Origin: Actinomycetota bacterium
GTDB lineage: Bacteria > Actinomycetota > Acidimicrobiia > Acidimicrobiales > Poriferisodalaceae
Assembly: GCA_014238065.1 (NCBI GenBank)
Contig: JABABU010000027.1
Location: forward strand, 62,001 to 126,000
DNA: 64,000 bases
Reading direction: 5' to 3'
Shown here: positions 35,867 through 57,252 of the stretch, piece by piece
Layout of the letters: every line of letters begins with the position of its first letter
How positions within the stretch are numbered: position 1 is the stretch's first letter
The notes under the pieces: model-generated
Databases searched by the model: none
Told to the model about the DNA's origin: nothing
What the model saw: the letters and a program-made list of their open reading frames with translations, nothing else
Made by a program: the position numbers and the translations under genes

Positions 35867-35891
35867 GTTCCGCTTGGGGGAACAGGGTTTC
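35867..35891 (+). promoter_or_regulatory. IclR-type operator site G
   Basis: GTTCC-N7-GGAAC-N3-GTTTC, one of the two best matches, in the 79-base divergent region. It is oriented toward the rightward lipocalin-like operon, but the palindromic core could also serve the leftward SDR operon. Confidence 0.72.
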
Positions 35892-42378: not shown

Positions 42379-43191
42379 TCAGGTTGGTCGAGGGAGTTGA
42401 CGATCGCCACCCCAAAGGGCGGCGACGAGACGGCTGGTGAGGTTGTCACCGAAGAACCGAACGGCCATGACGTTGGCCGGATCGCGCTCAGCGATGTTTC
42501 TACGACGCGTGAGATCGTCGGCGGCCAGCTGGACGCGCCGCTCGGCCGGAACCGGCTCTGCTTCGTCGACGAATGCAAGCCATTGGTCGACCCGCGTATG
42601 CGCGAGCTGGGAGATCTGGTTCAGGCGCTCTTCGCTGTACGTGCGTCCGGGGGTGGTGAAACAGATTGCTGTTTCAGACAGCGCTTGACGAACGTAGAGC
42701 GCTTTCGATGTGAACGGCGCAAGACCCTCATCGGCACGTAACTCGAGGAAGTCGTCGTTCATTGGTTCGAAGTACTTGTCGAGCGAGTCGGTGTCAAGCA
42801 TGAGATCGGATCTGGCGTTGAAGTCGATGTAGAACCACAGGTCGGGCAGAGTTCCCCAGGCAATGCCGAGATGCGGCACGTCGATCTGGGGTCCGAGCCA
42901 CGCCGTGAGGTGCATGTTTGTGAAACCGAGGGTCGGGTTGCCAATCCACGAGTGGACGAGCCAGTCGATCTCCGGGCCGGAGTAGGCGGCCAACCGGCCC
43001 GCCGGATACTCGTTCTCACCGCGGTACGACTCGAGATCGTCGGTGCTCGGGTCGCGGGTGAGTTCGAACCTGGCTCGGATCTTTGTCATGAGTTCTTCGG
43101 TGATCGACCACAACCGCTCGAAGGTGGCCGAAGAGTCAGTTGGTGCACGCTTGTCGAAGATTTCCTCGACGCCTTGAAGTGTCTCTTTCAT
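42379..43191 (-). CDS. Red chlorophyll catabolite reductase-like (FDBR superfamily) protein B
   Basis: A 270-residue protein. Parts I match to plant RCC reductase: LWFYIDFNARSDLML (119-132), a DKYFEPMNDDFLELR helix, PFTSKALYVRQALSETAI (159-176), WLAFVDEAE, and the ending AVRFFGDNLTSRLVAALWG (plant: FGEEVSSRVVHAI). RCC reductase reduces the linear tetrapyrrole made by PaO, with ferredoxin as donor and no cofactor. ATG 43191 has GAGGAG 4 bases upstream; an ATG at 43227 is less likely. It is first in the leftward operon below operator D. The similarity is by inspection. Confidence 0.7.
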   Translation of the reverse strand: MKETLQGVEEIFDKRAPTDSSATFERLWSITEELMTKIRARFELTRDPSTDDLESYRGENEYPAGRLAAYSGPEIDWLVHSWIGNPTLGFTNMHLTAWLGPQIDVPHLGIAWGTLPDLWFYIDFNARSDLMLDTDSLDKYFEPMNDDFLELRADEGLAPFTSKALYVRQALSETAICFTTPGRTYSEERLNQISQLAHTRVDQWLAFVDEAEPVPAERRVQLAADDLTRRRNIAERDPANVMAVRFFGDNLTSRLVAALWGGDRQLPRPT

Positions 43192-43265
43192 CGTCTCCTC
43201 ATGGCCTTCGAGTCCAGTGTTCAACAATCCCAGTATCCAAAAAACCAGTACCCGACAAACTCAGT

Positions 43266-43290
43266 GTTCCGAGGAGCGGAACGATGTTTC
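43266..43290 (+). promoter_or_regulatory. IclR-type operator site D
   Basis: GTTCC-N7-GGAAC-N3-GTTTC in the 155-base divergent region between the RCC-reductase/Rieske operon and the CitE-like gene. Oriented rightward. A further GAAAC 9 bases after the last half-site extends the symmetry. TAGCAT at 43307-43312 is a plausible -10 for the rightward gene. Confidence 0.72.
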
Positions 43291-43346: not shown

Positions 43347-44138
43347 ATGACGAGAAGCAGTCTCTATGTGCCAGGCGATCGGCCCGCACGCTTCGACAAG
43401 GCGCTGGCATCGGGCGCCGACGCCGTCATTCTCGACCTCGAGGACGGTGTTTCAGCCGACAAGAAGACCATCGCTCGGAGCAACGTGTGCTCGTGGCTCG
43501 GCGCCAACGGGACAGCCGCTGCTCTGGTCAGAGTCAACAGCGGAAACACGGGCGACAAGGACATCGAAGCCCTTCGAGCTGTCGGTCTTCCGAGGCTCGT
43601 CGTCCCGAAGGCGACACCAGAGACCTGCGCCATCAAAGGTGCCGTGGTCGTTGCGTTGATCGAAACCGCAGAGGGCGTCGCTCGGATCGACGAGATCGCC
43701 CAGCTGACCCAAGTGAGGCGCATCGCCATCGGCGAGGCCGATCTCGCCGAAGACCTCGGCATGTGGCCATCGCACGACGGCCGAGAGTTCGCAACAATTC
43801 GCGCTCAGATCGTCGTCGCGTCTGCTCACCGAGGCCTCGAGGCGCCGGCTGGACCGGTGCCGACCGACATCGAAGACCTCGAAGCACTCGAAGCGAGTTC
43901 GGATATTCTCCGCAGGACAGGGTTCGGCGGACGCTCGGTGATCCATCCAAGGCAGGTCGAAGTCGTCAACCGGGTATTCGAGCCTTCGACGTCCGAGATC
44001 GAATGGGCGCGCGGGGTCCTCTCGGCAGACCGAGCATCGGGTGGCCAGATCGCTGTCTACGACGGCGGGTTCGTCGACGCCCCGATCGTCGCTCGCGCCC
44101 GCCGGATCCTCGACAGAGTCGGCGAGCCGAACTCGTGA
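43347..44138 (+). CDS. HpcH/HpaI aldolase / citrate lyase beta (CitE-like) protein
   Basis: A 263-residue TIM-barrel lyase. RSSLYVPGDRPARFDKALASG is the typical opening, VILDLEDGVSADKK holds the metal-binding acidic cluster, VALIETAEGVARIDEIA the conserved Glu, AIGEADLAEDLG the second metal site, and GFGGRSVIHPRQVEVVN the CoA/substrate end. Members cleave malyl-, citramalyl- or methylmalyl-CoA-type compounds. The start is ATG 43347 with AGGGAA just upstream. Under operator D, it could split a substituted malyl-CoA at the end of the pathway; stand-alone CitE-like proteins act as such lyases. Confidence 0.86.
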   Translation: MTRSSLYVPGDRPARFDKALASGADAVILDLEDGVSADKKTIARSNVCSWLGANGTAAALVRVNSGNTGDKDIEALRAVGLPRLVVPKATPETCAIKGAVVVALIETAEGVARIDEIAQLTQVRRIAIGEADLAEDLGMWPSHDGREFATIRAQIVVASAHRGLEAPAGPVPTDIEDLEALEASSDILRRTGFGGRSVIHPRQVEVVNRVFEPSTSEIEWARGVLSADRASGGQIAVYDGGFVDAPIVARARRILDRVGEPNS

Positions 44139-44207: not shown

Positions 44208-45770
44208 TCAGCTGACGAGAGGAGCCGAGGCTCTCCATGATCGGCCCCCAACCAGATCGGTGTTTTTCGAAATCTCTCTGGCCAACGCCCGGATCGGGTG
44301 AAGCGAACCCAGTACAGGCCCACCGTCGGGCGAACGAACGCGCTCAGGAGTGTTGATCGTCCCGTCGTACTCGGACGAGCGCTGCGGTGACCAGAGTGAA
44401 TCGAGCGGCGGGTTGAGGATCATCGACGCCACGTCGTGTTCGGAACTCGAGCAGGCGACGAGGCACAACCGATTCTCGGCCGCACGTTCGCGGATGCCCA
44501 AATCACTCTCCCACCAGTTCGTGGGCTCGTATGAGACCAACGCGATGTGGGCTCCCTCGATCGCGGCCAGCCGGAACGCTTCAGGGAAAAGATGATCATC
44601 GCCGACAAAGAGGGCGACCGTACCGAAAGGGCTGTCCCAAAGCGAAAGCTCGCCGGCGAGATCAGCGTCATCAGCGGTGGCCGATGAGCTGTGGATCTGC
44701 CGTTGCTTGTGCACCACGCCTCGGCTCGACCACACGGAGGCGGTCCGGATTCCCCTGTCAACAGCAGTCGACATCAGATAGACACCGTCGGGAATCGCTT
44801 CGGGCGGCGCGACGCCTTCAGCCAGCACCACCAGCTGCACACCGTCGGCCATCGCATCGACAGCCTGCTCGGTCGAGGTGATTGCGGCTACAACGACATC
44901 CTCTGGAACATTGCCGCTGGGAACGTTCGACCGCGACTGTCCAAGCGGCGCGTACAGGGCAGGCCGACGACCAACGAGTCGGCCGTGGTCGACGGCGCCG
45001 AGATCGACATCAGCCCACACCACTGCCTCACCTGTTCGTGAGGCCTTGGCCAGAATCGTGCCGTCTGGCCCGACGATCTGGCTCTCGCCAGCACCATCGA
45101 GCGCTGTCCGCGGAATCCCGAGCGCTTCACTGAAGACATCGACTTGCTCTACAGGCAGGAGCGGACCGACCTTGTTCGCGGCGACCACGAACACGCCGTT
45201 CTCGACAGCGCGGACAGGAATGTGCAGGGCTGCCTCGTCCAACGCAAACGAGTTGAGGCTGTTCGTGAGCAGCCGTGCGCCTCGCACCGCGTAGCTGCGT
45301 GGCGTCTCAAACGTCACACCGTCCATGCATGCGTACAGCCCGATCGGACCGAATCGAGTCTGGGCCAGGTCGTTGACGCAGTCTCCGCCGACGAGGTGGG
45401 CACGCTCATTGCCCATCAACGTCTGCTTGGGAACGGCTGCAATGACCGTGCCCAGGTCATCGATCAACACGCTGGTGACCGTCACCTCGTCGTCGCGCGG
45501 GGTGGTAACGGTGACGGCAACATGGAGCCCTCCCGCACGCGCTCTTCTTGCGATCGAGCCGAGCCATTCGCCATCCAGCGAGAGGGCGACAGCTCTACAG
45601 TGATCCCGATCGCGGTACACCGAGATGTGATTCGAGAACTCTGGAAGAACCAGGAGATCGACCTCAGACGCGATGGCGTTGTCGATCAACCGAAGACAGC
45701 TGGCGAGGTTCTCGTCGAGATCCTGCGTCGCGGCGAACTGCCCTGCCGCGACACGAAGTCGATCGATCAC
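44208..45770 (-). CDS. Tandem nitrilase-superfamily protein (second domain degenerate)
   Basis: A 520-residue protein. Residues ~1-280 form an intact carbon-nitrogen hydrolase domain with the Glu44-Lys115-Cys148 triad (LVLPEFS, VPKQTLMG, GLYACMDG). Residues ~290-510 repeat the fold (VQLVVLAEGVAPPE, VHKQRQ, TVALFVGDDHLFPEAF) but the nucleophile Cys is Gly. Double nitrilase domains usually hydrolyse amides or carbamoyl groups. It overlaps iclR (GTGA) and is probably co-transcribed with it. Its role could be deamidation of a pathway intermediate. Confidence 0.8.
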   Translation of the reverse strand: MIDRLRVAAGQFAATQDLDENLASCLRLIDNAIASEVDLLVLPEFSNHISVYRDRDHCRAVALSLDGEWLGSIARRARAGGLHVAVTVTTPRDDEVTVTSVLIDDLGTVIAAVPKQTLMGNERAHLVGGDCVNDLAQTRFGPIGLYACMDGVTFETPRSYAVRGARLLTNSLNSFALDEAALHIPVRAVENGVFVVAANKVGPLLPVEQVDVFSEALGIPRTALDGAGESQIVGPDGTILAKASRTGEAVVWADVDLGAVDHGRLVGRRPALYAPLGQSRSNVPSGNVPEDVVVAAITSTEQAVDAMADGVQLVVLAEGVAPPEAIPDGVYLMSTAVDRGIRTASVWSSRGVVHKQRQIHSSSATADDADLAGELSLWDSPFGTVALFVGDDHLFPEAFRLAAIEGAHIALVSYEPTNWWESDLGIRERAAENRLCLVACSSSEHDVASMILNPPLDSLWSPQRSSEYDGTINTPERVRSPDGGPVLGSLHPIRALAREISKNTDLVGGRSWRASAPLVS

Positions 45771-46594
45771 CGATCGGCACCAACTCGGGCACCGAGTTGT
45801 GCCGACAGCTTCCGAGTCGCAGCGACGACCTCTCCGGCCACCATCAGCACCTCATCACGGAAACGATCGACAGGCCCACACACGCTGATGACCGCTATCG
45901 GGGTGTTCGTGTGATCGAGGATCGGAGCCGCCACCGAGCCGGCTCCGGCCTGACGCTCGCCAAGTGACACCGCGTAGCCGCGGTCGAGGATCTCAGCCAG
46001 CTCATCTCGTAATGCTGACTCGTTCACCACGGTGAGGTCGGTCAGCGCATCGAGCGGATGAGCGGCGAGATAGCGATCGATCTCTCCTGGCGCCAGCCAT
46101 GCAAGGAATGCTTTCGACGATGCTCCTGCGTAGAGAGGGAACGAGGCCGCCAGTTGCACGGTCATCTTCACTTCGCGTTGCGGCGTCACCTGATCGACAT
46201 ACACCCTGCGATCTCCGTGCATGACCGACAAGGTTGCGGTCTCGTTGGTTGCAGCAGACAACCCACGCATCGCTTCGAGCGACAGTGAACGAACGTCGAG
46301 TTGATCGAGGTAGGCGGCAGCCAACTGCAACACGGCAGGGCCAAGCGCATAGCGACGGGTCTTCGGGTCGCTGATCACGAGTCCGTGCTCGGCGAGCGAC
46401 GTCACGATGCGGTGAACAACCGCCTTCGAGATGCCGAGGCTCTTCGAGATCTCGGTGATACCGACAGTGCCGTCGGCCTCCGCAAAACAGAACAGCACAT
46501 CGGCAGCCCGTTCGATGGTTGCCACGCTGCGTGAGTTGGGACTGTCAGTCACTCGCGCTCCCATGTCGAGTAGCGATGGTGGCAGCGTAGCCAC
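45767..46594 (-). CDS. IclR family transcriptional regulator
   Basis: A 275-residue regulator. The N-terminal winged helix spans ~25-85: SVATIERAADVLFCFAEADG, then TEISKSLGISKAVVHRIVTSL as the recognition helix. The effector domain follows, with YAGASSKAFLAWL, LDRGYAVSLGERQAG and ISVCGPVDRF, hallmark IclR positions. The start is GTG 46594 or ATG 46564. A copy of the shared operator (site E) lies just upstream, so autoregulation is likely. It is the obvious candidate to recognise all seven sites. Confidence 0.9.
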   Translation of the reverse strand: MATLPPSLLDMGARVTDSPNSRSVATIERAADVLFCFAEADGTVGITEISKSLGISKAVVHRIVTSLAEHGLVISDPKTRRYALGPAVLQLAAAYLDQLDVRSLSLEAMRGLSAATNETATLSVMHGDRRVYVDQVTPQREVKMTVQLAASFPLYAGASSKAFLAWLAPGEIDRYLAAHPLDALTDLTVVNESALRDELAEILDRGYAVSLGERQAGAGSVAAPILDHTNTPIAVISVCGPVDRFRDEVLMVAGEVVAATRKLSAQLGARVGADR

Positions 46595-46606
46595 CCGGCG
46601 AGCGCT

Positions 46607-46631
46607 GTTCCGCCTAGCAAAACATGCTGAT
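46607..46631 (-). promoter_or_regulatory. IclR-type operator site E (autoregulatory)
   Basis: On the minus strand the site overlaps GTTTT-N7-GGAAC-N3-GCTCG, oriented toward iclR. It is the weakest of the sites: two half-sites are clear, the third degenerate. Confidence 0.5.
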
Positions 46632-46699: not shown

Positions 46700-46724
46700 G
46701 TTCCACTCACGGAAACGCTGTTCC
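46700..46724 (+). promoter_or_regulatory. IclR-type operator site F
   Basis: GTTCC-N7-GAAAC-N3-GTTCC, oriented toward the CoA-transferase operon, start codon 32 bases downstream. TATGTT (46698-46703) overlaps its left edge and could be the -10, which would make the site a repressor block. Confidence 0.68.
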
Positions 46725-46756
46725 GCTCGGCCGACCATCGGGGCCCGAGAGCGCTC

Positions 46757-47983
46757 GTGACCGCCTACCTCGACAACGGATCGACCGACGCCAGGTCGGG
46801 TCCCCTGACCGACCTGAAGGTGCTCGACATCTCGACGGTTCTGGCAGGGCCATTCGCGGCACAGGTGCTCGGTGACTACGGAGCTGATGTCATCAAGATC
46901 GAGCACCCCACCAAAGGCGACAGCCTGCGTGGCCAGGGGACCCAAGTTCGCGGCGAAGGTCTGTGGTGGAAGATCGTCAACCGCAACAAGCGCAACCTGG
47001 CGCTGTATCTCGGCCATCCCGACGGCGCAGCGATCTTCACCCAACTGGCCGCCACAGCCGACGTCATCATCGAAAACTTCAGACCAGGCACGCTTGAGCG
47101 GTGGGGCCTCGGCTACGACGTGTTGTCGGCCGGCAATCCTGGACTCGTGTTGTGCAGAGTCACCGGCTTCGGGCAAACGGGTCCATACTCAGGCCGGCCG
47201 GCGTTCGGCACCCTCGTCGAGGCAATGAGCGGGTTCGCTCACATGACAGGAGAAGCAGACGGACCTCCGACACTTCCACCATTCGGACTGGCCGACAGTG
47301 TGGCTTCACTGGCGGCAGTGAACGGCATCATGATGGCCATCCACGAGCGCTCGAACAGCGGGAAAGGTCAAGTCATCGATCTGGCGATTCTCGAACCTCT
47401 CGCCGCTGCGCTCGGCCCGCACATCGTCACGTACGACCAGACCGGCTCGATCGTCAGACGCAACGGCAATCGATCCTCGAACAACGCGCCCCGCAACACA
47501 TACAAGACCAGTGACGGTCGTTGGGTCGCGGTGTCGTCGAGCGCCGACTCGATTGCCAGGCGAGCCATGGAACTCGTCGGGCACCCTGAAGTCTGTGACG
47601 AACCGTGGTTCGCCACAGGGGCAGGCAGAGCAGAGCACGCAGACCTGATCGACGACCATGTTGCGGCATGGATCGGTGCCAGACCGCTCAAGCAGGTCAT
47701 CACCGAGTTCGCGGCCGCCGAAGTGGCGTTGGCACCCGTGTACGACGTCGAGCAGTACATGGCCGACGAGCAAGTTGAAGCACGCAACGCCGTCGCCACC
47801 GTTTCCGACCCGATCCTCGGGGAGATCAAGATGCAGAACATCCTGTTCGGCATGTCCGACACGCCTGGCGGCATCCGCCACACGGGCAGGGCCATCGGCG
47901 CCGACACCGACTCGATCCTTGACGAACTCGGCTTCGACACCTCGCACGTCGAAAATCTCCGAGCCGCGGGAGTCATCGCATGA
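46757..47983 (+). CDS. Class III CoA-transferase (CaiB/BaiF family) 1
   Basis: A 408-residue CoA-transferase. KVLDISTVLAGPFAAQVLGDYGADVIKIE is the family opening, with LWWKIVNRNKRNLAL and PFGLADSVASLAAVNG. Asp180 in LADSVA aligns with the catalytic Asp that forms the acyl-anhydride. It moves CoA from a donor thioester to an organic acid. The start is GTG 46757, downstream of operator F; an upstream ATG exists but would place the operator inside the gene. First of six genes with overlapping ends. Confidence 0.88.
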   Translation: MTAYLDNGSTDARSGPLTDLKVLDISTVLAGPFAAQVLGDYGADVIKIEHPTKGDSLRGQGTQVRGEGLWWKIVNRNKRNLALYLGHPDGAAIFTQLAATADVIIENFRPGTLERWGLGYDVLSAGNPGLVLCRVTGFGQTGPYSGRPAFGTLVEAMSGFAHMTGEADGPPTLPPFGLADSVASLAAVNGIMMAIHERSNSGKGQVIDLAILEPLAAALGPHIVTYDQTGSIVRRNGNRSSNNAPRNTYKTSDGRWVAVSSSADSIARRAMELVGHPEVCDEPWFATGAGRAEHADLIDDHVAAWIGARPLKQVITEFAAAEVALAPVYDVEQYMADEQVEARNAVATVSDPILGEIKMQNILFGMSDTPGGIRHTGRAIGADTDSILDELGFDTSHVENLRAAGVIA

Positions 47984-48786
47984 CCGCACGACAGCTACTC
48001 GACGCGCTCGCAGACGCAACGGTGATCGACCTCGGCCGACCGATGCGAAACGGTATGGCGCAATCGCCAAACCACCCGCCGTTTCGACACTGCCTCGATC
48101 GTCGTCACGGCGACAAGGTGCGTAACGACGGAGGATCGGCCGCGGCCGACCTGCTGACGACCGGGTGTCACGTCGGCACCCACGTCGACGCCCTCGCCCA
48201 CGTCAGCCACGACGGCCGACTTCACGGTGGCGTCGACGCATTCGAGGCTCAGTCGGAGGGGGTGTTCCACTCGCTCGGCATCCACGAACTCCCGCCGTTC
48301 GTCGGCCGCGGCATCATGCTCGACATCCCTGCGCTGCTCGGGGTCGCCGTGTGCGAACCCGGGTACGAGATCACGGTGTCCGACCTCGAAGCCGCTGAAG
48401 CTGCTCAATCCACACCCATCGGCGGTGGCGACGCTGTCCTGATCCGCAGTGGCTGGGGCGCTCACTTCGACACAGCCGAGCATTACCGCGGAACGTCGTC
48501 CGGTGTGCCAGGAGTCGGGGAGGCTGGTGCGACCTGGTTGGCTGATCGCGGAGTTGCGCTGGCCGGCGCTGACACCATCGCGTTCGAGTGCCTTCCAGCC
48601 GGCGCCGGCCACGCACTGCTTCCCGCACATCGGGTTCTGCTTGTCGAGGCTGGCATCAACATCATCGAAGCCCTCGATCTCGAAGGCATCTCGGCTTCTG
48701 GAATGCACGAGTTCATGTTCGTGCTCGGCCATCTCTCGATCTACGGGGCTACCGGCGCCCCAGCGCGGCCGCTCGCCATCGCATGA
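47980..48786 (+). CDS. Cyclase-family amidohydrolase (kynurenine formamidase-like)
   Basis: A 268-residue metal-dependent hydrolase. GCHVGTHVDALAHVSHDG is the HxGTHxDxxxH metal motif. Other conserved parts are LDIPALLGV and RSGWGAHFDTAEHYRG. Family members open formamide or lactone rings, e.g. kynurenine formamidase, isatin hydrolase. Isatin hydrolase opens an imide-like ring, so opening of a maleimide or lactam is conceivable here. It overlaps CoA-transferase 1 and the MmgE/PrpD gene (ATGA). Confidence 0.85.
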   Translation: MTARQLLDALADATVIDLGRPMRNGMAQSPNHPPFRHCLDRRHGDKVRNDGGSAAADLLTTGCHVGTHVDALAHVSHDGRLHGGVDAFEAQSEGVFHSLGIHELPPFVGRGIMLDIPALLGVAVCEPGYEITVSDLEAAEAAQSTPIGGGDAVLIRSGWGAHFDTAEHYRGTSSGVPGVGEAGATWLADRGVALAGADTIAFECLPAGAGHALLPAHRVLLVEAGINIIEALDLEGISASGMHEFMFVLGHLSIYGATGAPARPLAIA

Positions 48787-50219
48787 GCGCCCCAACCACC
48801 ACACCGACGATCATCGAGGCACTTGCCACGATGGCGGCTGGCCCTGTGCCATCCGATGTGATCCGTGCGGTCCCTTCCAGGGTGATCGACATCGTCGGCA
48901 TCGCGGCGAGGGCAACCACACTCGACACGAGCGCAGCCGTCGTCGGCTTCTCGATCGACCAACAGACCGCGCCACGGGCGACGGCGATCGGCGCAGAGCC
49001 CGCAATGTCGGCAGCCGAGGCTGCGTTCGTCAACGGCGTCCTCGCACACTCACTCGACTACGACGACACGCATCTTCCTTCGATCCTGCACCCGAGCGCT
49101 TCTGTGGTGCCTGCGGCATTGGCCACCGCAGAGCACGCTGGCGCCGACGGAGCTACCACAGCCGCTGCGATCGCCGTTGGCCTCGAAGTAGCGGTCCGGC
49201 TCGGCATGGGTGGGTACGACACGGAAGGGCGACAATCGATCTATTTCGAGCGTGGCCAACATGCGACGTCGATCTGCGGCGCCATTGGTTCGGCCGCAGC
49301 GGCGGCACGGATCCTGAGCGGAGAGTCCGAGGCGTTCATCGGCCACGCGATGGGCATCGCCGCCAGCATGGCCAGCGGCATCATCGAAGCGAACCGGGCC
49401 GGTGGAACAGTCAAGCGTCTCCACTGCGGGTGGGCAGCACGATCGGGAGTCACCGCGGCACAGTTGGCAATAGCAGGCCTCACCGGGCCCCCGACAGCAA
49501 TCGAAGGGCGGTTCGGCCTCTACTCCGCGTTTCTCGGCGACGAGGGAAACGTCGACGCGACAGTCGACCGGATCGGCGAGCACTGGGAAAGTCAGCGCAT
49601 CTTCATCAAGCCGTACCCCGCGAATCATTTCACGCACACAGCCATCGATGCAGCGATTGCGCTTCGCGAGGCCGGTGTGCGGCCGGATGACATCGCGTCG
49701 GCCACCTTGATGGTCGCAGCGCCGACGGTGCGAACCATCGGCGACCCCCTTCCGACCAAGCAGCGCCCGGAGACCGGATACCAAGCGCAGTTCAGCGGGC
49801 CGTACGCCGTTGCAGCCGGACTGATCGGTGGTGGGGGACTCGGGCTCGGGCTGGCCGACTTCACCGACGCGCTTGCCGTCGATCCACAACACCGCGCGCT
49901 CATGGCGAAGATCAACGTCGTCGGTGACCGCACCCTCGACGAGATCTATCCGTTTCAGTTTCCTTGCCGGCTTCAGGTCACGACCACCGACGGTTCGCAA
50001 CACCAGTGTGACGTGCTCACGAACCGCGGTGGCCCCGAACGGCCCCTGTCGGTCGACGAGCTGGCCCGGAAGTTCTCGGACAACGTCGAAGAACTGCTTC
50101 CTCCAGCCGCGATCGAGCAGCTCACCGAAGGGCTTGCCTCATTCACAACCGTGCCTTCCATCACCAGCGTGCTTTCGCCACTTGGCCGCATCACCACCCG
50201 GATCGAATCGACGGCATGA
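48783..50219 (+). CDS. MmgE/PrpD family protein
   Basis: A 478-residue protein. GVLAHSLDYDDTHLPSILHPSA is the strongly conserved active-site stretch (ahaLDyDDth), followed by GLEVAVRLG, KRLHCGWAARSGVTAA, and KPYPANHFTHTAIDA. The family covers 2-methylcitrate dehydratase, cis-aconitate decarboxylase and iminodisuccinate epimerase. Hydration of a substituted maleate/citraconate would fit the neighbourhood. The start is ATG 48783, in the six-gene operon below operator F. Confidence 0.87.
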   Translation: MSAPTTTPTIIEALATMAAGPVPSDVIRAVPSRVIDIVGIAARATTLDTSAAVVGFSIDQQTAPRATAIGAEPAMSAAEAAFVNGVLAHSLDYDDTHLPSILHPSASVVPAALATAEHAGADGATTAAAIAVGLEVAVRLGMGGYDTEGRQSIYFERGQHATSICGAIGSAAAAARILSGESEAFIGHAMGIAASMASGIIEANRAGGTVKRLHCGWAARSGVTAAQLAIAGLTGPPTAIEGRFGLYSAFLGDEGNVDATVDRIGEHWESQRIFIKPYPANHFTHTAIDAAIALREAGVRPDDIASATLMVAAPTVRTIGDPLPTKQRPETGYQAQFSGPYAVAAGLIGGGGLGLGLADFTDALAVDPQHRALMAKINVVGDRTLDEIYPFQFPCRLQVTTTDGSQHQCDVLTNRGGPERPLSVDELARKFSDNVEELLPPAAIEQLTEGLASFTTVPSITSVLSPLGRITTRIESTA

Positions 50220-51865
50220 CCCTCGACCCCGTGACCCTGGCCGTCCTCCAGGGACGCCTCGAGCAGATCGTCGACGAAATGGATGCCACCCTCTTCCGCT
50301 CGGCATTCAATCCGATCATCGCGGAAGCCCATGACGCTTCGCACGGCATCTACGACGCAACGACAGGGGCGACTGTCGCCCAAGGAAGCGCAGGCCTCCC
50401 CGTGTTCGTCGGTTCGATGGCAGGAGCGGTCGCGCTCACGATCGATGCTGCGAACGCGTCTGGCGGACCGAGCGAAGGCGACATTTGGATCTTCAACGAT
50501 CCATACCGAGGCGGCACGCACCTCAACGACATGAAGCTGGTGCAGCCGTTCTTCGTCGACGGTGACTTGTTCTGCTGGCTCGCATCAGTCGGCCACTACA
50601 CCGACGTCGGTGGCTCTGTGCCAGGCAACTACAACCCCGCGGCCGTCGAAAGCGCTCAGGAGGGCGTGCTGATTCCTCCGATGAAGCTGCGCGATCGAGG
50701 CGTGCTCCGTGACGACGTGGTGAACCTCATCCGGTCGATCTCGCGAGTGCCGGTGAATGCGTACGGCGACCTGCAAGGCCAGCTGAACTCGCTCCATCTC
50801 GGTACCGCCCGGTTCACCACACTCGTCGACGACTTCGGAGCAACGACCGTTGCCGAGGGCTTCTCCGAGCTGACAGCGCGGGCAGCTGAACTGATGCGGA
50901 GCAGGATCGCCGGCCTTCCCGACGGCACATATTCACTCGACGACCATCTGGACAACGATGGCAACACCGACGAACTCATCCAGGTCGCTCTCGACCTCAC
51001 CATCGACGGTGACGAGATGGTCCTCGACTTCTCGCGAACATCAACTGCGGTTGCAGGCCCGGTCAACATCTCGCGATCGACGGCCATCGCCGCCTGCTAC
51101 GTCGCACTGAAGCACATCTTTCTCGACGTCCCCGCAAATGCTGGTTGCCTCGAGCCGATAGACATCAGGATTCCCGACGGGTCGCTCCTCGACGCCACCT
51201 GGCCACGGCCGGTTGCCGGTTACACCGAAACGATCCTGCGAGTCATGGACGTCATGTTCGGTACCCTCGCCGAAGCCGACCCGGCCATCAGCAACGGCTC
51301 CTCATACGGCACCATCAATGCCTTGTCGATCGCCGGCGCAGCCGACCCGGACAACCGCTGGGTGATGTTCACGTTCTACGGCGGCGGGCTTGGCGGTTCG
51401 CCAGTGAGCGACGGTCTCAATCACGGAAACGCTCCCCTGTCGACGGCGACGATTCCTCCTGTCGAAGTGCTCGAAGCGAGCTACCCGGTTCGTTACACCC
51501 GATGGTCGCTTCGACCCGACTCAGGAGGCCACGGCGAGCACCGCGGAGGCCTCGGCGCAGAGTATGAGATTGAATTGCTCGACGAAGCTGCCGACGTGTT
51601 CGTGTTCGGTGATCGTGCCCGAGTCGGCCCTCCCGGCGTGGTCGGGGGCGGCGCGGCGGCGACAAACGACATTCGTTTCATTGTCGACGGCAAGGAGATC
51701 GTGCCCGATCTCGGCTCGAAAGCCATCGGGGTGGTGCTACAACGTGGCGACCGAATCGTGATGTCGACACCAGGTGGGGGCGGCTACGGCAACCGAGCCG
51801 ACCGAACTGACTCCGACATCGAGCGAGACCTCCGCCTCGGCTACGTCACAAAGACCGAACAGTGA
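50216..51865 (+). CDS. hyuB: Hydantoinase B / oxoprolinase beta family protein (HyuB)
   Basis: A 549-residue subunit. LDPVTLAVLQGRLEQIVDEMDATLFRSAF is the family start. It contains NDPYRGGTHLNDMKLVQPFF and RPDSGGHGEHRGGLG, the Gly-rich metal-site segments, and ends PGGGGYG. With HyuA it hydrolyses cyclic amides (hydantoins, 5-oxoproline) with ATP, or carboxylates ketones in related complexes. The gene order B then A is reversed compared with many loci but the pair is intact. A lactam or maleimide substrate is an inference from context. Confidence 0.88.
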   Translation: MTLDPVTLAVLQGRLEQIVDEMDATLFRSAFNPIIAEAHDASHGIYDATTGATVAQGSAGLPVFVGSMAGAVALTIDAANASGGPSEGDIWIFNDPYRGGTHLNDMKLVQPFFVDGDLFCWLASVGHYTDVGGSVPGNYNPAAVESAQEGVLIPPMKLRDRGVLRDDVVNLIRSISRVPVNAYGDLQGQLNSLHLGTARFTTLVDDFGATTVAEGFSELTARAAELMRSRIAGLPDGTYSLDDHLDNDGNTDELIQVALDLTIDGDEMVLDFSRTSTAVAGPVNISRSTAIAACYVALKHIFLDVPANAGCLEPIDIRIPDGSLLDATWPRPVAGYTETILRVMDVMFGTLAEADPAISNGSSYGTINALSIAGAADPDNRWVMFTFYGGGLGGSPVSDGLNHGNAPLSTATIPPVEVLEASYPVRYTRWSLRPDSGGHGEHRGGLGAEYEIELLDEAADVFVFGDRARVGPPGVVGGGAAATNDIRFIVDGKEIVPDLGSKAIGVVLQRGDRIVMSTPGGGGYGNRADRTDSDIERDLRLGYVTKTEQ

Positions 51866-53904
51866 CCAACTCTGCGGGCATCGTGATCGGCATCGATGTC
51901 GGCGGTACGTTCACCGACATCGTCAAGGTCGACGAGGCGACCAGCGAAGTACAGATCGCGAAAGTTCCTTCAACCCGCGGCGACGAAGCGAGCGGATTCC
52001 TCCGAGGCATCACCACTGTCGTCGACGACGTGAGTTCGGTGTCGGCCATCGTCCACGGAACGACGGTCGGCACCAACGCAATCCTCGAACGCAAGGGTGC
52101 AGTGACCGGCATCATCACCACCGCTGGCTTCCGCGATGTGCTCGAGATGCGGCGTCGCGATAGGCCGAGCACATGGGGGCTGTGGGGCCAGTTCGTCCCG
52201 ATCATCGATCGCGATCGCCGCTTCGAAGTCCCTGAGCGCACTGGTGCCGACGGATCGATCGTCGAAGCCGTCGACCTCAGCGCCGTCAGGCAGCGGGCCG
52301 CGGAGTTGCTCGACGCTGGAGCAACAGCGTGCTGCGTGTCGTTCATAAACGCACACGCCAACGCGGACAACGAGCGCGCCGCCGTTGCGGCCGTTCGAAC
52401 GATGTGGCCCAACGCCCACGTCACCAGCGCTGTCGAACTGCTGTCGGAGATCAGGGAGTTCGAGCGGACGTCGACCGCTGCCCTCAACGCCTATCTGCAG
52501 CCTGTCATCGGCGACTACCTCGAACACCTCGAACTCTCTCTCGGCGAACACGGCTTCAATGGCAGCTTCCTCATCGTGCAATCGAACGGCGGAGTGATGA
52601 CGTCGACCGCAGCGAGGGCACTCCCTGTCCGCACAGCACTCAGCGGACCAGCCGCAGGTGTCATCGCCGCCGCGCATCTCGCCGGCGCGGCAGGGCACCA
52701 CAATGTGATCACGTGCGACATGGGTGGCACCAGCTTCGACGTTGCGGTCATCGCCAACGGCGCGACCGTGACCAGCGCTCAGACATCTGTCGATTTCGGC
52801 CTGGTCGTGCGGACACCGATGATCGAGATCTCGACCATCGGTGCCGGTGGCGGCTCGATCGCTTCGGTCGATGAGGGTGGAATCCTCAGGATCGGTCCCG
52901 AGTCGGCAGGTTCAGTCCCTGGCCCTGCCTGCTACGGCCGGGGGAACGATCGACCGACAGTCACGGACGCTCATCTCGTCCTCGGTCGACTGAACGGCGA
53001 TGTGCCCATCGGTGGGCTCGAATGTCTGGATCAGGACGCGGCCGTAGATGCGATCGACCGATACGTCGGGCACCCGCTCGACCTCGACACCGACGAGGCG
53101 GCCGCGGCCGTACTCCGCGTAGCCACTAGCAGGATGGCGGGCGCTATCAGGTTGGTGTCGGTCCAGCGCGGGCACGATCCATCCGAATTCATCGCCATGC
53201 CATTCGGTGGCGCCGGCGCGCTGCACGTATGCGGCTTGCTCGCCGACATCGGACTCTCCGCAGCGCTCATTCCAAAGTACCCGGGTGTCATCAGTGCCTT
53301 CGGAGCGACCATCGCAGACACCAGGCACGACCTCGTCCAGACAGTTGGCCAGACTGTCGCCGCCCTGTCCGGTGACGACCTCGCCGCCAAGCTCGCGGCA
53401 GCCGAAGAGGAGCTCCGGGCCTTCGTTTCCGACGCCGACCTCGTGTTCGACGGCATCGCCGTACGCCACGAACTCGACATGTCTTACGTCGGCCAGACCC
53501 ACACCGTGGTCGTTCCGCTCGATGATGTCGACCAAATCGACTCGACATCGGTTCTCCACGCCTTCGACACCGCCTATCGCGCCACCTATGGACGAACGCT
53601 CGACTCGATCGCGGCGAGGGTCATGTCAGCCCGATCGATCATCGTCGGCCGCCGACCGAAGCTCCAACTCAACAGTTCGGCGCGTGAGACACATAGCGGG
53701 ACCAGGTCGGCTGCTGTCCGTCGAGAGGTCTACTTCGATGGCGCCTGGACATCGACGCCTGTTCTGCAGCGACTCGACCTTCCGACCGGATGGACGGCCG
53801 AAGGGCCAGTCATCCTGGAACAATCCGACGCCACCATCGCCATCGAACCGGGTTTCCGAGCCGCTATCGACGATCACGGCAACGTTATGGTGACCACGAC
53901 ATGA
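51862..53904 (+). CDS. hyuA: Hydantoinase A / oxoprolinase alpha family protein (HyuA)
   Basis: A 680-residue ATPase subunit of the ASKHA fold. Phosphate loops: VIGIDVGGTFTDIVKVD and VITCDMGGTSFDVAVI. It also has VHGTTVGTNAILERKGA, SNGGVMTS and FGGAGALHVCGLL. It activates the amide with ATP for hydrolysis by HyuB. Start GTG overlaps hyuB; it also overlaps the isochorismatase gene. It binds nucleotide in the cytoplasm. Length is normal for the family. Confidence 0.9.
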   Translation: MTNSAGIVIGIDVGGTFTDIVKVDEATSEVQIAKVPSTRGDEASGFLRGITTVVDDVSSVSAIVHGTTVGTNAILERKGAVTGIITTAGFRDVLEMRRRDRPSTWGLWGQFVPIIDRDRRFEVPERTGADGSIVEAVDLSAVRQRAAELLDAGATACCVSFINAHANADNERAAVAAVRTMWPNAHVTSAVELLSEIREFERTSTAALNAYLQPVIGDYLEHLELSLGEHGFNGSFLIVQSNGGVMTSTAARALPVRTALSGPAAGVIAAAHLAGAAGHHNVITCDMGGTSFDVAVIANGATVTSAQTSVDFGLVVRTPMIEISTIGAGGGSIASVDEGGILRIGPESAGSVPGPACYGRGNDRPTVTDAHLVLGRLNGDVPIGGLECLDQDAAVDAIDRYVGHPLDLDTDEAAAAVLRVATSRMAGAIRLVSVQRGHDPSEFIAMPFGGAGALHVCGLLADIGLSAALIPKYPGVISAFGATIADTRHDLVQTVGQTVAALSGDDLAAKLAAAEEELRAFVSDADLVFDGIAVRHELDMSYVGQTHTVVVPLDDVDQIDSTSVLHAFDTAYRATYGRTLDSIAARVMSARSIIVGRRPKLQLNSSARETHSGTRSAAVRREVYFDGAWTSTPVLQRLDLPTGWTAEGPVILEQSDATIAIEPGFRAAIDDHGNVMVTTT

Positions 53905-54491
53905 GCGGCGAGCCTCGGCGGGCCCTCCTCCTCGTCGACCTGCAGAACGACTTCATCCACCGGCAGGGAGCCTACGCTCGGGGCGGAGCCACCTCCAGAG
54001 CCATCGCGGAGGTGTCGTCGCGAGTCGGTCCGCTCGTCGAGGCAGCCAGAGCCGCGGAAGTTCCCATCGTCGCAACTCTGTTCACCCTCGTCCAAACACC
54101 TACCGGACCGTTGATCGGAGACCACCTCGCTCGGCTACGCCCGTTTTTGGCCGCTGGCGACTTCGCTCCCGGGTCGTGGGGTCAGGATGTGGTTGCCGAA
54201 GTCGCCCCGGCCGATGTGACTGTCGAGAAAGTGGCCTACTCGGCCTTTCACCAGAGCCGCCTCGACTTCGTCCTGAGGCAGCTCGGGGTGACCGACTTGA
54301 TGGTCACCGGCATCGTCACGAATGGAGGCGTGGCCTCGACAGTCCGAGCTGCCCATGTTCTCGACTACTCGACTGTGGTCGTCTCCGATGGATGTGCGGC
54401 GTTCTCCGACGAAGCCCACGAGGCGACCATCGCCTCGCTGGCAACAGTCAGCGAGATCACGACAATCGAGGACGCCCGTGCGTCATTCTGA
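53901..54491 (+). CDS. Isochorismatase-fold hydrolase with Cys-to-Gly change
   Basis: A 196-residue protein of the isochorismatase/cysteine hydrolase fold. LLLVDLQNDF gives Asp13 and TVEKVAYSAF gives Lys110. In GIVTNGGVASTVRAA the nucleophile Cys is Gly143. This Gly is also present in true isochorismatases such as EntB, which hydrolyse vinyl ethers rather than amides. So a maleamidase (NicF-like) reaction is unlikely, and ether cleavage or loss of activity is possible. It ends the operon below operator F and overlaps the convergent lyase gene by 9 bases. Confidence 0.8.
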   Translation: MSGEPRRALLLVDLQNDFIHRQGAYARGGATSRAIAEVSSRVGPLVEAARAAEVPIVATLFTLVQTPTGPLIGDHLARLRPFLAAGDFAPGSWGQDVVAEVAPADVTVEKVAYSAFHQSRLDFVLRQLGVTDLMVTGIVTNGGVASTVRAAHVLDYSTVVVSDGCAAFSDEAHEATIASLATVSEITTIEDARASF

Positions 54492-55391
54492 TGTCGCCAC
54501 CGGAAAGCCGCCTGCTTTGGCCACGAGGCTAGGAACCTCATGACCGAGTTCTTCTTCCAGCCAGGTGCTGGTTGCTATGAGGGCATCGAGGTCGAGTCCG
54601 GTGTCGTAGCTCATCTCGTGGAGCATGTAGACGACATCTTCGGTCGGCACGTTGCCCGTGGCGCGAGGAGCGAAGGGGCAACCTCCGACGCCACCGAGGC
54701 TCGAGTCGAACACCTTGACTCCTGCACCGACCGCTGCGCCGATGTTGGCCAGCGCCGTGTTGCGCGTGTTGTGGAAGTGGCCTCGGAGAGCGGCACCCGG
54801 CATGGCCTCAGCCACCAGCCCGAACAACTCGACCACCTGCGACGGAACTCCGACCCCGATGGTGTCAGCCACAACGATTTCGTCAGGCTCGGTGTCGGCG
54901 ATGATTCGGGCGATGTCGGCGATCTTCGAAGAAGCGACTCGTCCTTCAAACGGACACCCGCAGGCAGCCGAAATGGTGACAGCCGTTGCCGCACCCGCAG
55001 CGCGGGCCGTGTCGGAAATCGTTCGCCAGCGAGCGATGGCCTCCTCGATGGTTGCGCCCTGGTTCCGCTGCGAGAAGGTTTCGGTCGCCACGATGACGCC
55101 GTTGATCTCGTCAGCCCCGGCTTCGATAGCCCGTTCGACGCCACGCTGGTTCAACGCCAACGCGCTGTATCTCACGCCGGGCACCCTATCGATGCCGGCC
55201 ATCACGCCTTCACCGTCGGCCATTTTCGGCACTGCCTTCGGGCTGACGAAACTCGCGGCCTCGATACGGGTGTGGCCGGCTGCGGCAAGACGGGAAACCA
55301 GCTCGATCTTGGTGGCCGTACTCAGGTCGGCCGGATCGGCCTGGAGGCCGTCCCGCGGCGACACCTCGACGATCTGAATCCGATTCCCCAT
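54483..55391 (-). CDS. HMG-CoA lyase family protein
   Basis: A 302-residue TIM-barrel lyase. VEVSPRDGLQADPADL binds substrate and metal (DGLQ). SFVSPKAVPKMAD, EINGVIVATETFSQRN, GHFHNTRNTALANIGAA (metal His pair) and GGVGGCPFAPRATGNVPTED with the catalytic Cys are all hallmark segments. It splits 3-hydroxy-3-methylglutaryl-CoA or an analogue into acetyl-CoA and a keto acid. The start is ATG 55391. It is divergent from CoA-transferase 2 with 23 bases between starts, so a shared regulatory region is likely. Confidence 0.9.
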   Translation of the reverse strand: MGNRIQIVEVSPRDGLQADPADLSTATKIELVSRLAAAGHTRIEAASFVSPKAVPKMADGEGVMAGIDRVPGVRYSALALNQRGVERAIEAGADEINGVIVATETFSQRNQGATIEEAIARWRTISDTARAAGAATAVTISAACGCPFEGRVASSKIADIARIIADTEPDEIVVADTIGVGVPSQVVELFGLVAEAMPGAALRGHFHNTRNTALANIGAAVGAGVKVFDSSLGGVGGCPFAPRATGNVPTEDVVYMLHEMSYDTGLDLDALIATSTWLEEELGHEVPSLVAKAGGFPVATSE

Positions 55392-55414
55392 GATGTGAGG
55401 AGCATACTGACGCA

Positions 55415-56611
55415 ATGTCTGGCGCCCTGAGTGACATACGCGTGATCGAAATGGGAACCCTCCTCGCAGGGCCCTTCTGTGGTCAGCTGCTGGCCGACCA
55501 CGGTGCAGAAGTGGTGAAGATCGAACCACCGGGCAACGGCGATCCAATGCGGGTCTGGGGCCAGGAGAAGGCAGAGGGCAAGGGCCTGTGGTGGCCGGTG
55601 GTCGCCCGCGGCAAGAAGTCGGTCACGATCAACCTGCGAGAAGCAGCCGGCCAAGACCTCGTGAAGCAACTCGTCGGCGAGGCAGACATCCTCGTCGAGA
55701 ACTTCCGACCGGGGACAATGGAGCGCTGGGGCCTCGATCCCGAGACGCTCCACGCCATCAACCCGCGTCTCATCATCACCAGGGTCAGCGGCTACGGCCA
55801 GACCGGCCCGTACTCGTCACGACCGGGTTTCGGGGCGATCGGTGAAGCTCTCGGAGGCATCAGGTACACCACCGGCGAATCCGACCGTATGCCATCACGT
55901 ACTGGCATCAGCATCGGCGACTCGCTGACAGCAATGTTCGCCACCATCGGCACCTTGAACGCCCTTCATGCTCGCACCAGAACCGGATCTGGTCAGGTGG
56001 TCGATGCTGCGCTCTACGAATCCGTACTTGCGGTGATGGAGTCGCTGCTGACCGAGTTCCACGTGGCCGGATTCATCCGCGAGCGCACCGGATCTCTCAT
56101 CCCGAACATCGCACCCGCGAACGTCTACCCCACCGCGGATGACAAGATGCACCTGATCTCCGGCAACCAGGACACGGTCTTCCGTCGGCTTGCGGTGGCG
56201 ATGGGGCAACCCGAACTCGGAACCGACGAACGATTTGCGACCCATCTCGGTCGCGGTGACAACCAGTTCGAGCTCGACGACTTGATCAGAGAGTGGTCGG
56301 CAACGCTGACATCGGAGGAACTGCGAGAGGTACTGAACGAAAACGCCGTCCCGAACGGACCGATGTACCGCGCCCCGGAGATGCTCGAAGACGAGCACTT
56401 CGTGGCCAGAGAGGCCATCCGCTGGGTGGAGAGCGACGACTTCGGCGATCTGCCGATGCAGAACGTGGTCCCTAAACTCTCTGACACGCCCGGCAACATC
56501 CGTTGGGCTGGACCACGACTCGGCGAACACAACGCCGAGGTTCTCCGTCACATCCTCGGCCTCGACGACGAGGCCATCGAAGCACTTCGCGCCAAGAACG
56601 TGATCGAATAG
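55415..56611 (+). CDS. Class III CoA-transferase (CaiB/BaiF family) 2
   Basis: A 398-residue CoA-transferase. DIRVIEMGTLLAGPFCGQLL opens it, with HGAEVVKIEPPGNGDPMR, VENFRPGTMERWGLDPETLH and GISIGDSLTAM; Asp169 is the catalytic residue. It may activate the acid that the divergent HMG-CoA-lyase-like enzyme cleaves. The start ATG has GAGGAG upstream. It has the same length as the CoA-transferase at 46757 but is clearly diverged. Confidence 0.9.
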   Translation: MSGALSDIRVIEMGTLLAGPFCGQLLADHGAEVVKIEPPGNGDPMRVWGQEKAEGKGLWWPVVARGKKSVTINLREAAGQDLVKQLVGEADILVENFRPGTMERWGLDPETLHAINPRLIITRVSGYGQTGPYSSRPGFGAIGEALGGIRYTTGESDRMPSRTGISIGDSLTAMFATIGTLNALHARTRTGSGQVVDAALYESVLAVMESLLTEFHVAGFIRERTGSLIPNIAPANVYPTADDKMHLISGNQDTVFRRLAVAMGQPELGTDERFATHLGRGDNQFELDDLIREWSATLTSEELREVLNENAVPNGPMYRAPEMLEDEHFVAREAIRWVESDDFGDLPMQNVVPKLSDTPGNIRWAGPRLGEHNAEVLRHILGLDDEAIEALRAKNVIE

Positions 56612-56616
56612 ACGCC

Positions 56617-57252
56617 ATGACAGACGCACTCGCCGACGACTACCTGAGCGCAGGCTTCAGCGGACGCCTCGGGTTCGGGCAGCGACCAGCGCTGGTCGTC
56701 ATCGACTTCTGCCGCGCCTACCTCGACCCCAAGTCCCCACTTTACGCTGACGTCGAGGACGCCAGAGCATCCAGCGAGCGCATCCTTGATGCAGCACGAT
56801 CGGCCGGAATCCCGATCGCCCACACGAGGGTCGAGTTCCAGCCTGACGGCGCAGACGGCGGCGTGTTTTTCCGAAAAGTCGATGCCCTCAGGTGCTTCGT
56901 CCGTGGAAATCCACTCGGCGAGTATGGCGAAGGGCTCACACCGATCGACGGCGAGACAATCGTCACGAAGCAGTACGCATCGGGCTTCTTCGGGACCTCA
57001 CTAGCTTCGATGCTCACCAGTCGCGGCATCGACACGCTGATTCACACGGGGGTGTCGACCAGTGGCTGCGTCAGAGCAACCGCAGTCGACGCATGCCAAT
57101 ACGGCTTCATCCCCATCGTCGTACGCGAGGCCGTCGGCGACCGCGACGATGCGATTCATGAGTCAAACCTCTTCGACCTCGACGCGAAGTACGCCGACGT
57201 GGTCGGCGAGGCCGATGTGATCTCCTACCTCGCAGGCCCCGCCAGCAGCTAG
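56617..57252 (+). CDS. Isochorismatase family cysteine hydrolase
   Basis: A 211-residue amidohydrolase with a complete triad: Asp30 in ALVVIDFCRAYLD, Lys118 in IVTKQYASGFFGT, and Cys151 in GVSTSGCVRATAVDA. The TSGCVRATAVDA stretch is characteristic of N-carbamoylsarcosine amidase-like proteins. It should hydrolyse a C-N bond in an amide or carbamoyl compound. It lies 5 bases after CoA-transferase 2, in the same operon. This retains the cysteine that the paralogue at 53901 has lost. Confidence 0.86.
   Translation: MTDALADDYLSAGFSGRLGFGQRPALVVIDFCRAYLDPKSPLYADVEDARASSERILDAARSAGIPIAHTRVEFQPDGADGGVFFRKVDALRCFVRGNPLGEYGEGLTPIDGETIVTKQYASGFFGTSLASMLTSRGIDTLIHTGVSTSGCVRATAVDACQYGFIPIVVREAVGDRDDAIHESNLFDLDAKYADVVGEADVISYLAGPASS

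Follow-up and report, generated by a model that had tools for sequence, protein, structure and literature searches.

A putative cyclic-imide-opening operon under an operator shared with RCCR-family genes in a Poriferisodalaceae genome

What is degraded by an operon whose predicted operator also stands in front of a gene for a red-chlorophyll-catabolite-reductase-family protein (RCCR)? The question is raised by six genes at 46757-54491 of a 64-kb stretch of DNA (64,000 nucleotides; hereafter the window) from a genome of the Poriferisodalaceae, Actinomycetota (contig JABABU010000027.1, positions 62,001 to 126,000; assembly GCA_014238065.1, 3.94 Mb in 56 contigs, ~95% complete). A preliminary description, made from the letters of the window, had proposed that these genes form the lower part of a pathway for substituted maleimides released by oxidative tetrapyrrole breakdown. 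We read the operon as an IclR-controlled module that would open a five-membered cyclic imide, or an imide-like ring, and degrade the resulting acid via coenzyme A (CoA) chemistry, and we give this reading a probability of roughly 0.45. Taken by itself, the opening of a cyclic imide is quite probable. A tetrapyrrole origin of that imide is plausible, unproved and a little short of an even chance, and the individual steps and products are more tentative still. As substrate we infer alkyl-maleimides rather than hydantoins or lactams.

The operon and its operator

The six genes lie on the forward strand in the order CoAT1, cyclase, MmgE/PrpD, HyuB, HyuA and Isoch1, as the preliminary description had them. 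At each of the five junctions neighbouring genes share 4 nt (ATGA/GTGA; inferred starts 46757, 47980, 48783, 50216, 51862 and 53901), and each product scores above its Pfam cut-off. CoAT1 (46757-47983) is a class III CoA-transferase (CoA_transf_3, PF02515, 382.6 bits) whose best NCBIfam model, succinate--glutarate CoA-transferase, is matched at 237.1 bits, below the cut-off of 750. It is followed by a cyclase-family metal-dependent hydrolase (47980-48786; Cyclase, PF04199, 103.1 bits) and an MmgE/PrpD-family protein (48783-50219; MmgE_PrpD_N/C, 174.3/118.6 bits). The latter is nearest in the PDB to cis-aconitate decarboxylase (118 bits) and IDS epimerase (114 bits), and scores 37-49 bits against 2-methylcitrate dehydratase PrpD models, without reaching their NCBIfam equivalog cut-offs of 458-950. 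HyuB (50216-51865; Hydantoinase_B, 528.2 bits) and HyuA (51862-53904; Hydantoinase_A, 294.8 bits), with both domains above the Pfam cut-off, make HyuAB a member of the hydantoinase/oxoprolinase family, and by this membership HyuA is presumably ATP-dependent. In NCBIfam HyuA comes closest to caprolactamase alpha (482.3 bits) and HyuB to caprolactamase beta (276.6 bits), each below an equivalog cut-off of 1000, and the nearest solved relatives are an N-methylhydantoinase and a hydantoinase/5-oxoprolinase pair. The last gene encodes an isochorismatase-fold protein, Isoch1 (53901-54491; Isochorismatase, 138.5 bits).

Three further enzymes, absent from the earlier list, are encoded at 54483-57252: an HMG-CoA-lyase-type enzyme adjoining the operon (HMGL; 54483-55391, reverse strand), a second class III CoA-transferase (CoAT2; 55415-56611, forward strand; PF02515, 411.8 bits) and a second isochorismatase-family protein, the amidohydrolase Isoch2 (56617-57252, forward strand). 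HMGL falls in the HMG-CoA lyase subfamily, passing the NCBIfam PRK05692 cut-off of 246 with 334.1 bits. Of the enzymes named earlier, the six of the operon and a CitE-like lyase are present; HMGL, a second C-C lyase, had been missed.

Divergent from the operon is a gene for an IclR-family regulator (45767-46594, reverse strand; PF01614, 133.4 bits; PF09339, 53.8 bits). We use as operator pattern a 19-bp IclR-type palindrome, TGTTCCGCNNNGCGGAACA, first spotted by eye in intergenic sequence. At three or fewer mismatches it occurs six times in the window (shuffle mean 0.53; 0 of 100 shuffles reach six). The whole genome holds 39 matches vs 16 for the reversed control pattern, and five of its nine best matches (two or fewer mismatches) are inside the window. 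One site lies in the gap between iclR and CoAT1 (46606-46624) and another 38 nt upstream of CoAT1 (46719-46737). Others stand between the divergent RCCR operon and the CitE-like gene (43265-43283), between an alpha/beta-hydrolase gene on the reverse strand and lipocalin-like and DUF3891 genes on the forward strand (35866-35884), and upstream of an Amdase gene starting at 25401 (25372-25390). A weaker site with three mismatches (23404-23422) is found downstream of the gene that follows a further Amdase gene (21393-22139), ahead of which the pattern scan of the window showed no site. The statement that the lower-pathway operons share one operator is therefore retained for the six-gene operon, CitE and the Amdase gene at 25401, and not for the one at 21393. 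A common operator across the window regulon is well supported.

RCCR relatives were taken as the best 80 of 146 loci, namely 15 loci L020-L034 and 65 loci L035-L099, the latter mostly from actinomycetes; counts for them refer to locus flanks and not to whole genomes. The nearest named relatives of the window RCCR come from metagenome genomes, mostly titled Acidimicrobiia or Acidimicrobiales, and one from Rhodospirillaceae (L020). Among L020-L034 the operator lies just upstream of RCCR in all 15 loci. It is in the iclR/CoAT1 gap in seven of the 11 loci that carry iclR and CoAT1, and all 12 loci with the alpha/beta-hydrolase gene have a site at that gene; some sites were scored as inside CitE because the CitE query had a long 5' extension. 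These loci contain 37 operator sites vs no control site. Loci L035-L099 contain 21 operator sites vs three control sites in 1.26 Mb, and the operator is not clearly conserved there; the argument from a common operator therefore covers only Acidimicrobiia-type loci and stand-alone modules.

The RCCR operon, on the reverse strand, encodes RCCR (42379-43191; PF06405, 55.2 bits, cut-off 24.9), a Rieske oxygenase with a VanA_C domain (41229-42371; PF19112, 98.2 bits; PF00355, 76.1 bits) and a second protein of the RCCR/FDBR fold (40519-41232; AlphaFold2 pLDDT 96), whose best Foldseek match is RCCR 2zxk (E 3.3e-11, query TM 0.75), followed by PcyA and PebA. Family membership of RCCR, the predicted fold of the 40519 protein and the VanA-type domain of the Rieske oxygenase together make a tetrapyrrole, either a chlorophyll catabolite or a bilin, the likely substrate of the upper pathway. 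Of the 15 loci L020-L034, 11 keep CoAT1, cyclase, MmgE, IclR, nitrilase, CitE, RCCR, Rieske and the second RCCR-fold protein together. Contig ends truncate L029, L031 and L032, and in the flanks of L034 the lower operon is not seen.

Exchange of the ring opener and breadth of the module

The exchange of the ring opener among relatives is the strongest new evidence for imide or hydantoin ring opening. In nine RCCR-linked loci (L021, L023-L028, L030 and L033) a cyclic amidohydrolase of ~486 aa is encoded between MmgE and HMGL, and HyuB, HyuA and Isoch1 were not matched. The best models for this enzyme are allantoinase, dihydropyrimidinase and hydantoinase, all below cut-off, and its best structures are D-hydantoinase. 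Four metal-ligand-type motifs, derived from L023 itself and hence a loose test only, occur in all nine, and as written one is missing from the enzyme of L072 and two from that of L101. Altogether 14 RCCR-linked loci have the operon (the window, L020-L028, L030, L033, L105 and L145); five carry HyuB or HyuAB (the window, L020, L022, L105 and L145) and nine the dihydropyrimidinase type. Both types together were seen in none of the 14, although L020 and L022 are cut inside HyuAB. In a midpoint-rooted MmgE tree the 14 rows with linked RCCR form one clade (96/83) in which the HyuAB row L145 is the first branch and the nine amidohydrolase rows stand together (100/99), the branching order of the remaining HyuAB rows not being resolved.

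Modules that lack RCCR add a third opener family. Within the region read, 14 of 19 such modules have the dihydropyrimidinase type (L101 and 13 of L128-L144, L139 being scored from a partial match at the region edge), L100 has instead a PuuE/polysaccharide-deacetylase-type protein (106.2 bits against the allantoinase PuuE model, cut-off 424.6 not reached), and in four no opener was seen, two of which sit at contig ends; the module counts leave out L102 (contig end, 3.1 kb). In six of the 14 (L101 and L128-L132) the amidohydrolase gene is part of the CoAT1-cyclase-MmgE run or its direct neighbour; in the remainder it is found at another place in those 20 kb, often on the far side of iclR. A Chloroflexi RCCR locus, L072, carries the same opener type at 58.5% identity. 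On that contig, genes for RCCR, DUF3891 and lipocalin-like proteins stand together with those for the dihydropyrimidinase-type hydrolase and for an acyl-CoA-dehydrogenase-type flavoprotein (L072:2405-11788), so the link between RCCR and opener crosses phyla.

Opening a cyclic imide, hydantoin or ureide is the chemistry common to the three families. HxnM is described as a cyclic imidase, related like the Pseudomonas putida imidase to the PuuE type (PMC9304392), and dihydropyrimidinases have been grouped with imidases and reported as active on imides (PMC4437985). The presence of three unrelated families of cyclic-amide opener in one module suggests that the ring it opens is that of an imide or a hydantoin.

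The module extends beyond the tetrapyrrole genes. RCCR was detected in three of 118 genomes of the order, all with cyclase (at least 57% identity) and MmgE (at least 50%) orthologues, which also occur in three further genomes of the order that lack RCCR, one of them partly covered. Across 396 Actinomycetota genomes, some incomplete, MmgE (E <=1e-90) was found in 22 and RCCR (E <=1e-40) in three, all within the 22. Stand-alone modules typically comprise IclR, CoAT1, CitE, cyclase, MmgE and the amidohydrolase. Loci L128-L145 (18 loci) contain 25 operator sites vs two control sites. Of these loci 13 have iclR, and one of them (L145) has RCCR; in 10 of the 13 an operator site lies 300 bp or less ahead of iclR, and in the other three no site was seen within that distance. 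As operator and IclR are kept in RCCR-less modules, the regulon is independent of RCCR, and the tetrapyrrole genes seem to have been recruited into it. On the simplest reading, the pigment-cutting genes would owe their recruitment to a product that serves the module as substrate.

Three further observations concern loci without RCCR. A Novosphingobium plasmid (L149) combines matches to HyuAB, PEP-mutase-type lyase, FAD monooxygenase, Amdase, CoA-transferase and HMGL, with no RCCR match in the 16.7 kb read; this cuts both ways, in that the chemistry appears as a set and the pigment is not required. On Tistrella mobilis pTM2 (L148) an Amdase gene is flanked by genes for a CoA ester lyase, a MaoC dehydratase, an acyl-CoA dehydrogenase family member and an amidase, and the 12.7 kb read gave no RCCR match. 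Finally, an FAD-binding flavoprotein, fumarate-reductase-like by eye only (L137:8637-10034, with homologues in seven other loci), occurs in eight stand-alone loci and adjoins the amidohydrolase in seven; it could oxidise or reduce a ring C-C bond.

Catalytic residues, proposed route and rival readings

Isoch1 has Gly (motif TNGGV) in all three copies (window, L105 and L145) at what we take, from the D-K-C triad read against Isoch2, to be the position of the Cys nucleophile; isochorismatases proper also have Gly there. With Gly for Cys, Isoch1 is not a Cys amidase, and its candidacy as a NicF-like maleamate amidohydrolase was rejected. Isoch2 keeps the Cys in all four aligned rows and scores 175.6 bits with N-carbamoylsarcosine amidohydrolase vs 127.4 bits with 3ot4/3uao, which we take to be the maleamate amidohydrolase NicF. 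For a nitrilase-superfamily amidase (44208-45770, reverse strand; PF00795, 121.1 bits) 70 orthologue rows were aligned, of which 97% or more keep E44, K115 and C148. At the same level of conservation the cyclase keeps H64, H68, D70 and H74 (32 rows), the CitE-like acyl-CoA lyase (43347-44138, forward strand) R131, E175 and D201 (32 rows), and HMGL R65, D66, H257, H259, C290 and N299 (16 rows), the last two in open reading frame numbering. Presumably these residues of the nitrilase, cyclase, CitE and HMGL have active-site roles. The CitE-like protein is nearest to the citramalyl-CoA lyase RipC (141.7 bits; NCBIfam equivalog cut-off 375 not reached).

The two Amdase proteins of the forward strand (PF17645), encoded at 21393-22139 and 25401-26156, have Ser/Cys and Ser/Val, respectively, at the two positions where the annotated NdpH maleate isomerases of L146 and L147 have Cys/Cys; to align the first cysteine a gap was moved by eye. 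The two-Cys site required for the maleate-isomerase-like step of the preliminary description is thus missing from both. Arylmalonate decarboxylase is reported to work with one Cys (PMC12576825), and by its Ser/Cys pattern the protein at 21393 resembles that enzyme.

In the route that we propose, HyuAB would spend ATP to open the ring, a step for which relatives would use the dihydropyrimidinase-type or PuuE-type imidase. The amide nitrogen may be removed by the Cys amidohydrolase Isoch2 or by the nitrilase, and the metal cyclase and MmgE/PrpD would process the unsaturated dicarboxylate by hydration, isomerisation or decarboxylation. A CoA-transferase would activate the acid for cleavage by the CitE-type or HMGL-type lyase to a 2-oxo acid and an acyl-CoA. 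Because RCCR, Rieske and second RCCR-fold genes are under the same operator, the ring would come from an opened tetrapyrrole, whose end rings would supply it in the form of alkyl-methylmaleimides. An ethyl side chain would then give pyruvate and butyryl-CoA, and a propionate side chain (haematinic acid) pyruvate and glutaryl-CoA.

Hydroxy-acid-type lyases recur beside RCCR, not in every locus. The flanks of L035-L099 contain the CitE type in 15 of 65, HMGL (at least 49.5% identity, the value of L044) in five, CoAT2 (>60%) in three and Isoch2 in two. A PEP-mutase/ICL-type lyase, whose best model is methylisocitrate lyase (below cut-off), is found at 39% identity or more in nine of the 65, with a tenth, weaker match in L087 ~9 kb away, and in four RCCR-linked Acidimicrobiia-type loci (L020, L022, L029 and L105); the window has no match to the L020 protein at E 1e-3.

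A fuller scheme would have Rieske/RCCR enzymes and flavin monooxygenases convert pigments to alkyl-methylmaleimides, three interchangeable imide hydrolases open these, and CoA-transferase with CitE/HMGL yield pyruvate and acyl-CoAs, the imide module having first been a stand-alone IclR regulon whose operator the pigment-cutting operons later gained. Such complete bacterial mineralisation of pigments is a tentative proposal that we regard as possible and somewhat doubtful.

Several points weigh against a cyclic imide of tetrapyrrole origin. HyuA, HyuB, CoAT1, cyclase, MmgE and CitE all score below every NCBIfam cut-off, the hydration step is without a proven enzyme, and the maleate isomerase identity of both Amdase proteins had to be rejected. 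The same three opener families also open hydantoins and allantoin, and genome G019 has CoAT1-cyclase-MmgE with no recognised ring opener nearby. Cyclase, MmgE, HyuA and HyuB occur in none of the 65 flanks of L035-L099. In the phylum survey, 19 of the 22 genomes with the module MmgE show no RCCR, so the substrate need not derive from tetrapyrroles, and strict tetrapyrrole specificity of the operon is rejected. For the leaves studied in one source, haematinic acid but no maleimides is reported (PMC7318184). The preliminary description was right in its list of enzymes, and its imide idea gains real support, as does a ring-opening hydrolase that shares one regulon with tetrapyrrole-type enzymes; its isomerase and Isoch1 steps do not stand.

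A rival reading is a hydantoin, ureide or dihydropyrimidine module, in which HyuAB or the hydantoinase-type enzyme would open a hydantoin-like ring of other origin, and the tetrapyrrole genes would share the regulator only as fellow suppliers of nitrogen or carbon. The nearest solved relatives of HyuAB, the allantoinase and D-hydantoinase matches of the exchanged enzyme, the PuuE match of L100, the proximity of Isoch2 to N-carbamoylsarcosine amidohydrolase and the frequency of the module without RCCR all point that way. However, all of these matches fall short of the equivalog cut-offs. Class III CoA-transferase, CitE/HMGL and MmgE would suit a branched C4-C8 dicarboxylate and not a hydantoin-derived amino acid, and the operator precedes RCCR in every one of the loci L020-L034. 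We consider such a module rather unlikely. Caprolactamase and 5-oxoprolinase open lactams, and the caprolactamase models, far below their cut-offs as the scores are, remain the best for HyuA and HyuB. HyuAB might accordingly open a pyrrolinone, either a BOX-type monopyrrole lactam or a bilin end ring, with the nitrilase cleaving a side-chain amide; 70 of the 80 RCCR loci have a nitrilase match, which in one locus is at only 25% identity, and BOX A, B and C are described as in vitro oxidation products of chlorophyll a (PMC7318184). We consider this route distinctly improbable, since the dihydropyrimidinase and PuuE families swapped in for HyuAB are described as acting on imides, hydantoins and ureides, not on simple lactams (PMC4437985, PMC9304392).

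A pathway for formylkynurenine or another aromatic amide, with the cyclase as kynurenine formamidase, is very improbable indeed. It would draw on a weak match to arylformamidase KynB (TIGR03035), and kynurenine formamidase and isatin hydrolase are among the weak PDB matches of the cyclase. The score, at 32.7 bits, is far below the equivalog cut-off of 223, and this identity was set aside on it; the partner genes encode CoA and lyase enzymes, and no kynureninase or tryptophan-dioxygenase family was found among the window proteins scanned, which were not every open reading frame.

Neighbouring genes, known systems and significance

Other genes of the window extend the neighbourhood of RCCR. In the 65 loci L035-L099 the alpha/beta hydrolase, Rieske, the second RCCR-fold protein and a 39582-type protein are each present in 59-60, Amdase in 57, a nitrilase match in 56, an FAD monooxygenase in 49 and an acyl-CoA-dehydrogenase/DszC-type flavoprotein in 36. 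In the window the last two are the FAD-dependent aromatic-hydroxylase-type monooxygenase at 22129-23373 (PF01494, 165 bits) and the gene at 25963-27429, whose start is probably further 3', both on the forward strand. Amdase and flavin genes occur in none of the 15 flanks of L020-L034, the window copies lying 15-20 kb from RCCR, beyond the reach of those flanks. Between these regulon genes, 23330-25345 (forward strand) encodes a Neocarzinostatin-family-like match (below cut-off) and an SBBP beta-propeller protein. Branched-chain-type ABC genes in fused form follow on the same strand (29129-31078 and 31078-33840), and a gene near them at 27701 resembles those for periplasmic binding proteins; one ABC protein has membrane segments (by eye) and an ATPase, the other permease domains and an ATPase.

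The protein encoded beside RCCR at 39582-40517 (reverse strand) is found at 35% identity or more in all 15 loci L020-L034 and in 59 of L035-L099, and has no Pfam or NCBIfam match. Its AlphaFold2 model (pLDDT 93) has BFA1 and a cyanobacterial DUF3598 protein as nearest solved folds and forms a double beta barrel; the protein may be a carrier of pigment. A DUF3891 protein (36165-37190, forward strand; 114.9 bits) is encoded beside RCCR in 12 of the loci L020-L034, and in the Chloroflexi loci L072 and L089 but none of the other 63 of L035-L099. The clusters described for pre-PcyA enzymes, in a source that uses RCCRs as outgroup, contain haem oxygenase, V4R and globin genes and differ in gene content from the window cluster (PMC10151467).

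Among known systems, the aerobic lower pathway of nicotinate and nicotine (NicF, NicE/NdpH) offers a ring-opened maleamate-type intermediate, an isochorismatase-fold amidohydrolase (compare Isoch2, 127 bits to 3ot4/3uao) and Amdase-superfamily proteins, which are also in the regulon. It differs in that the window Amdase proteins lack the two cysteines and Isoch1 lacks Cys, CoA-transferases and lyases replace the isomerisation to fumarate, and the substrates would be dialkyl maleates. At the end of clostridial nicotinate fermentation a dialkylmaleate is hydrated by the aconitase-type 2,3-dimethylmaleate hydratase and cleaved to pyruvate and an acyl product, and 2,3-dimethylmalate lyase belongs to the PEP-mutase/ICL superfamily. 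A lyase of that superfamily stands beside RCCR in some relatives, whereas the window has CitE/HMGL and MmgE/PrpD instead. Degradation of itaconate and citramalate, which uses a CoA-transferase, a hydratase and a RipC/Ccl lyase, shares with the window a CoA-transferase and a CitE-type lyase, nearest RipC; the window adds ring-opening hydrolases, amidases and the cyclase, and its CitE falls below the RipC cut-off.

Cyclic-imide utilisation (Aspergillus HxnM, the Pseudomonas putida imidase and the vertebrate imidase/dihydropyrimidinase) resembles the module in that dihydropyrimidinase and PuuE types replace HyuAB in relatives, whereas HyuAB, the opener of the window, is not an established imide opener. 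Plant chlorophyll breakdown pairs the Rieske oxygenase PAO with RCCR, as the window operon pairs a Rieske oxygenase with an RCCR-family protein. Here, however, the Rieske C-terminal domain is VanA_C, no PAO-family Pfam match being reported for it, and the window has two RCCR-fold proteins and a downstream mineralisation module, which to our knowledge is known in no plant.

About 10^12 kg of chlorophyll is made and degraded per year; haematinic acid and other mono- and dipyrrolic products are described from leaves, and maleimides from sediments (PMC7318184). A search of open-licence papers turned up no account of bacteria channelling tetrapyrrole fragments into central metabolism, and no bacterial RCCR/maleimide pathway. 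If RCCR-type enzymes are indeed tied in one regulon to a module of imide opening and CoA/lyase chemistry, this would point to a possible biological sink for such fragments. Such a regulon would make the question of tetrapyrrole fragments directly testable with a few purified enzymes and with maleimides that can be bought or synthesised, and it hints at how bacteria might consume chlorophyll-like pigments completely.

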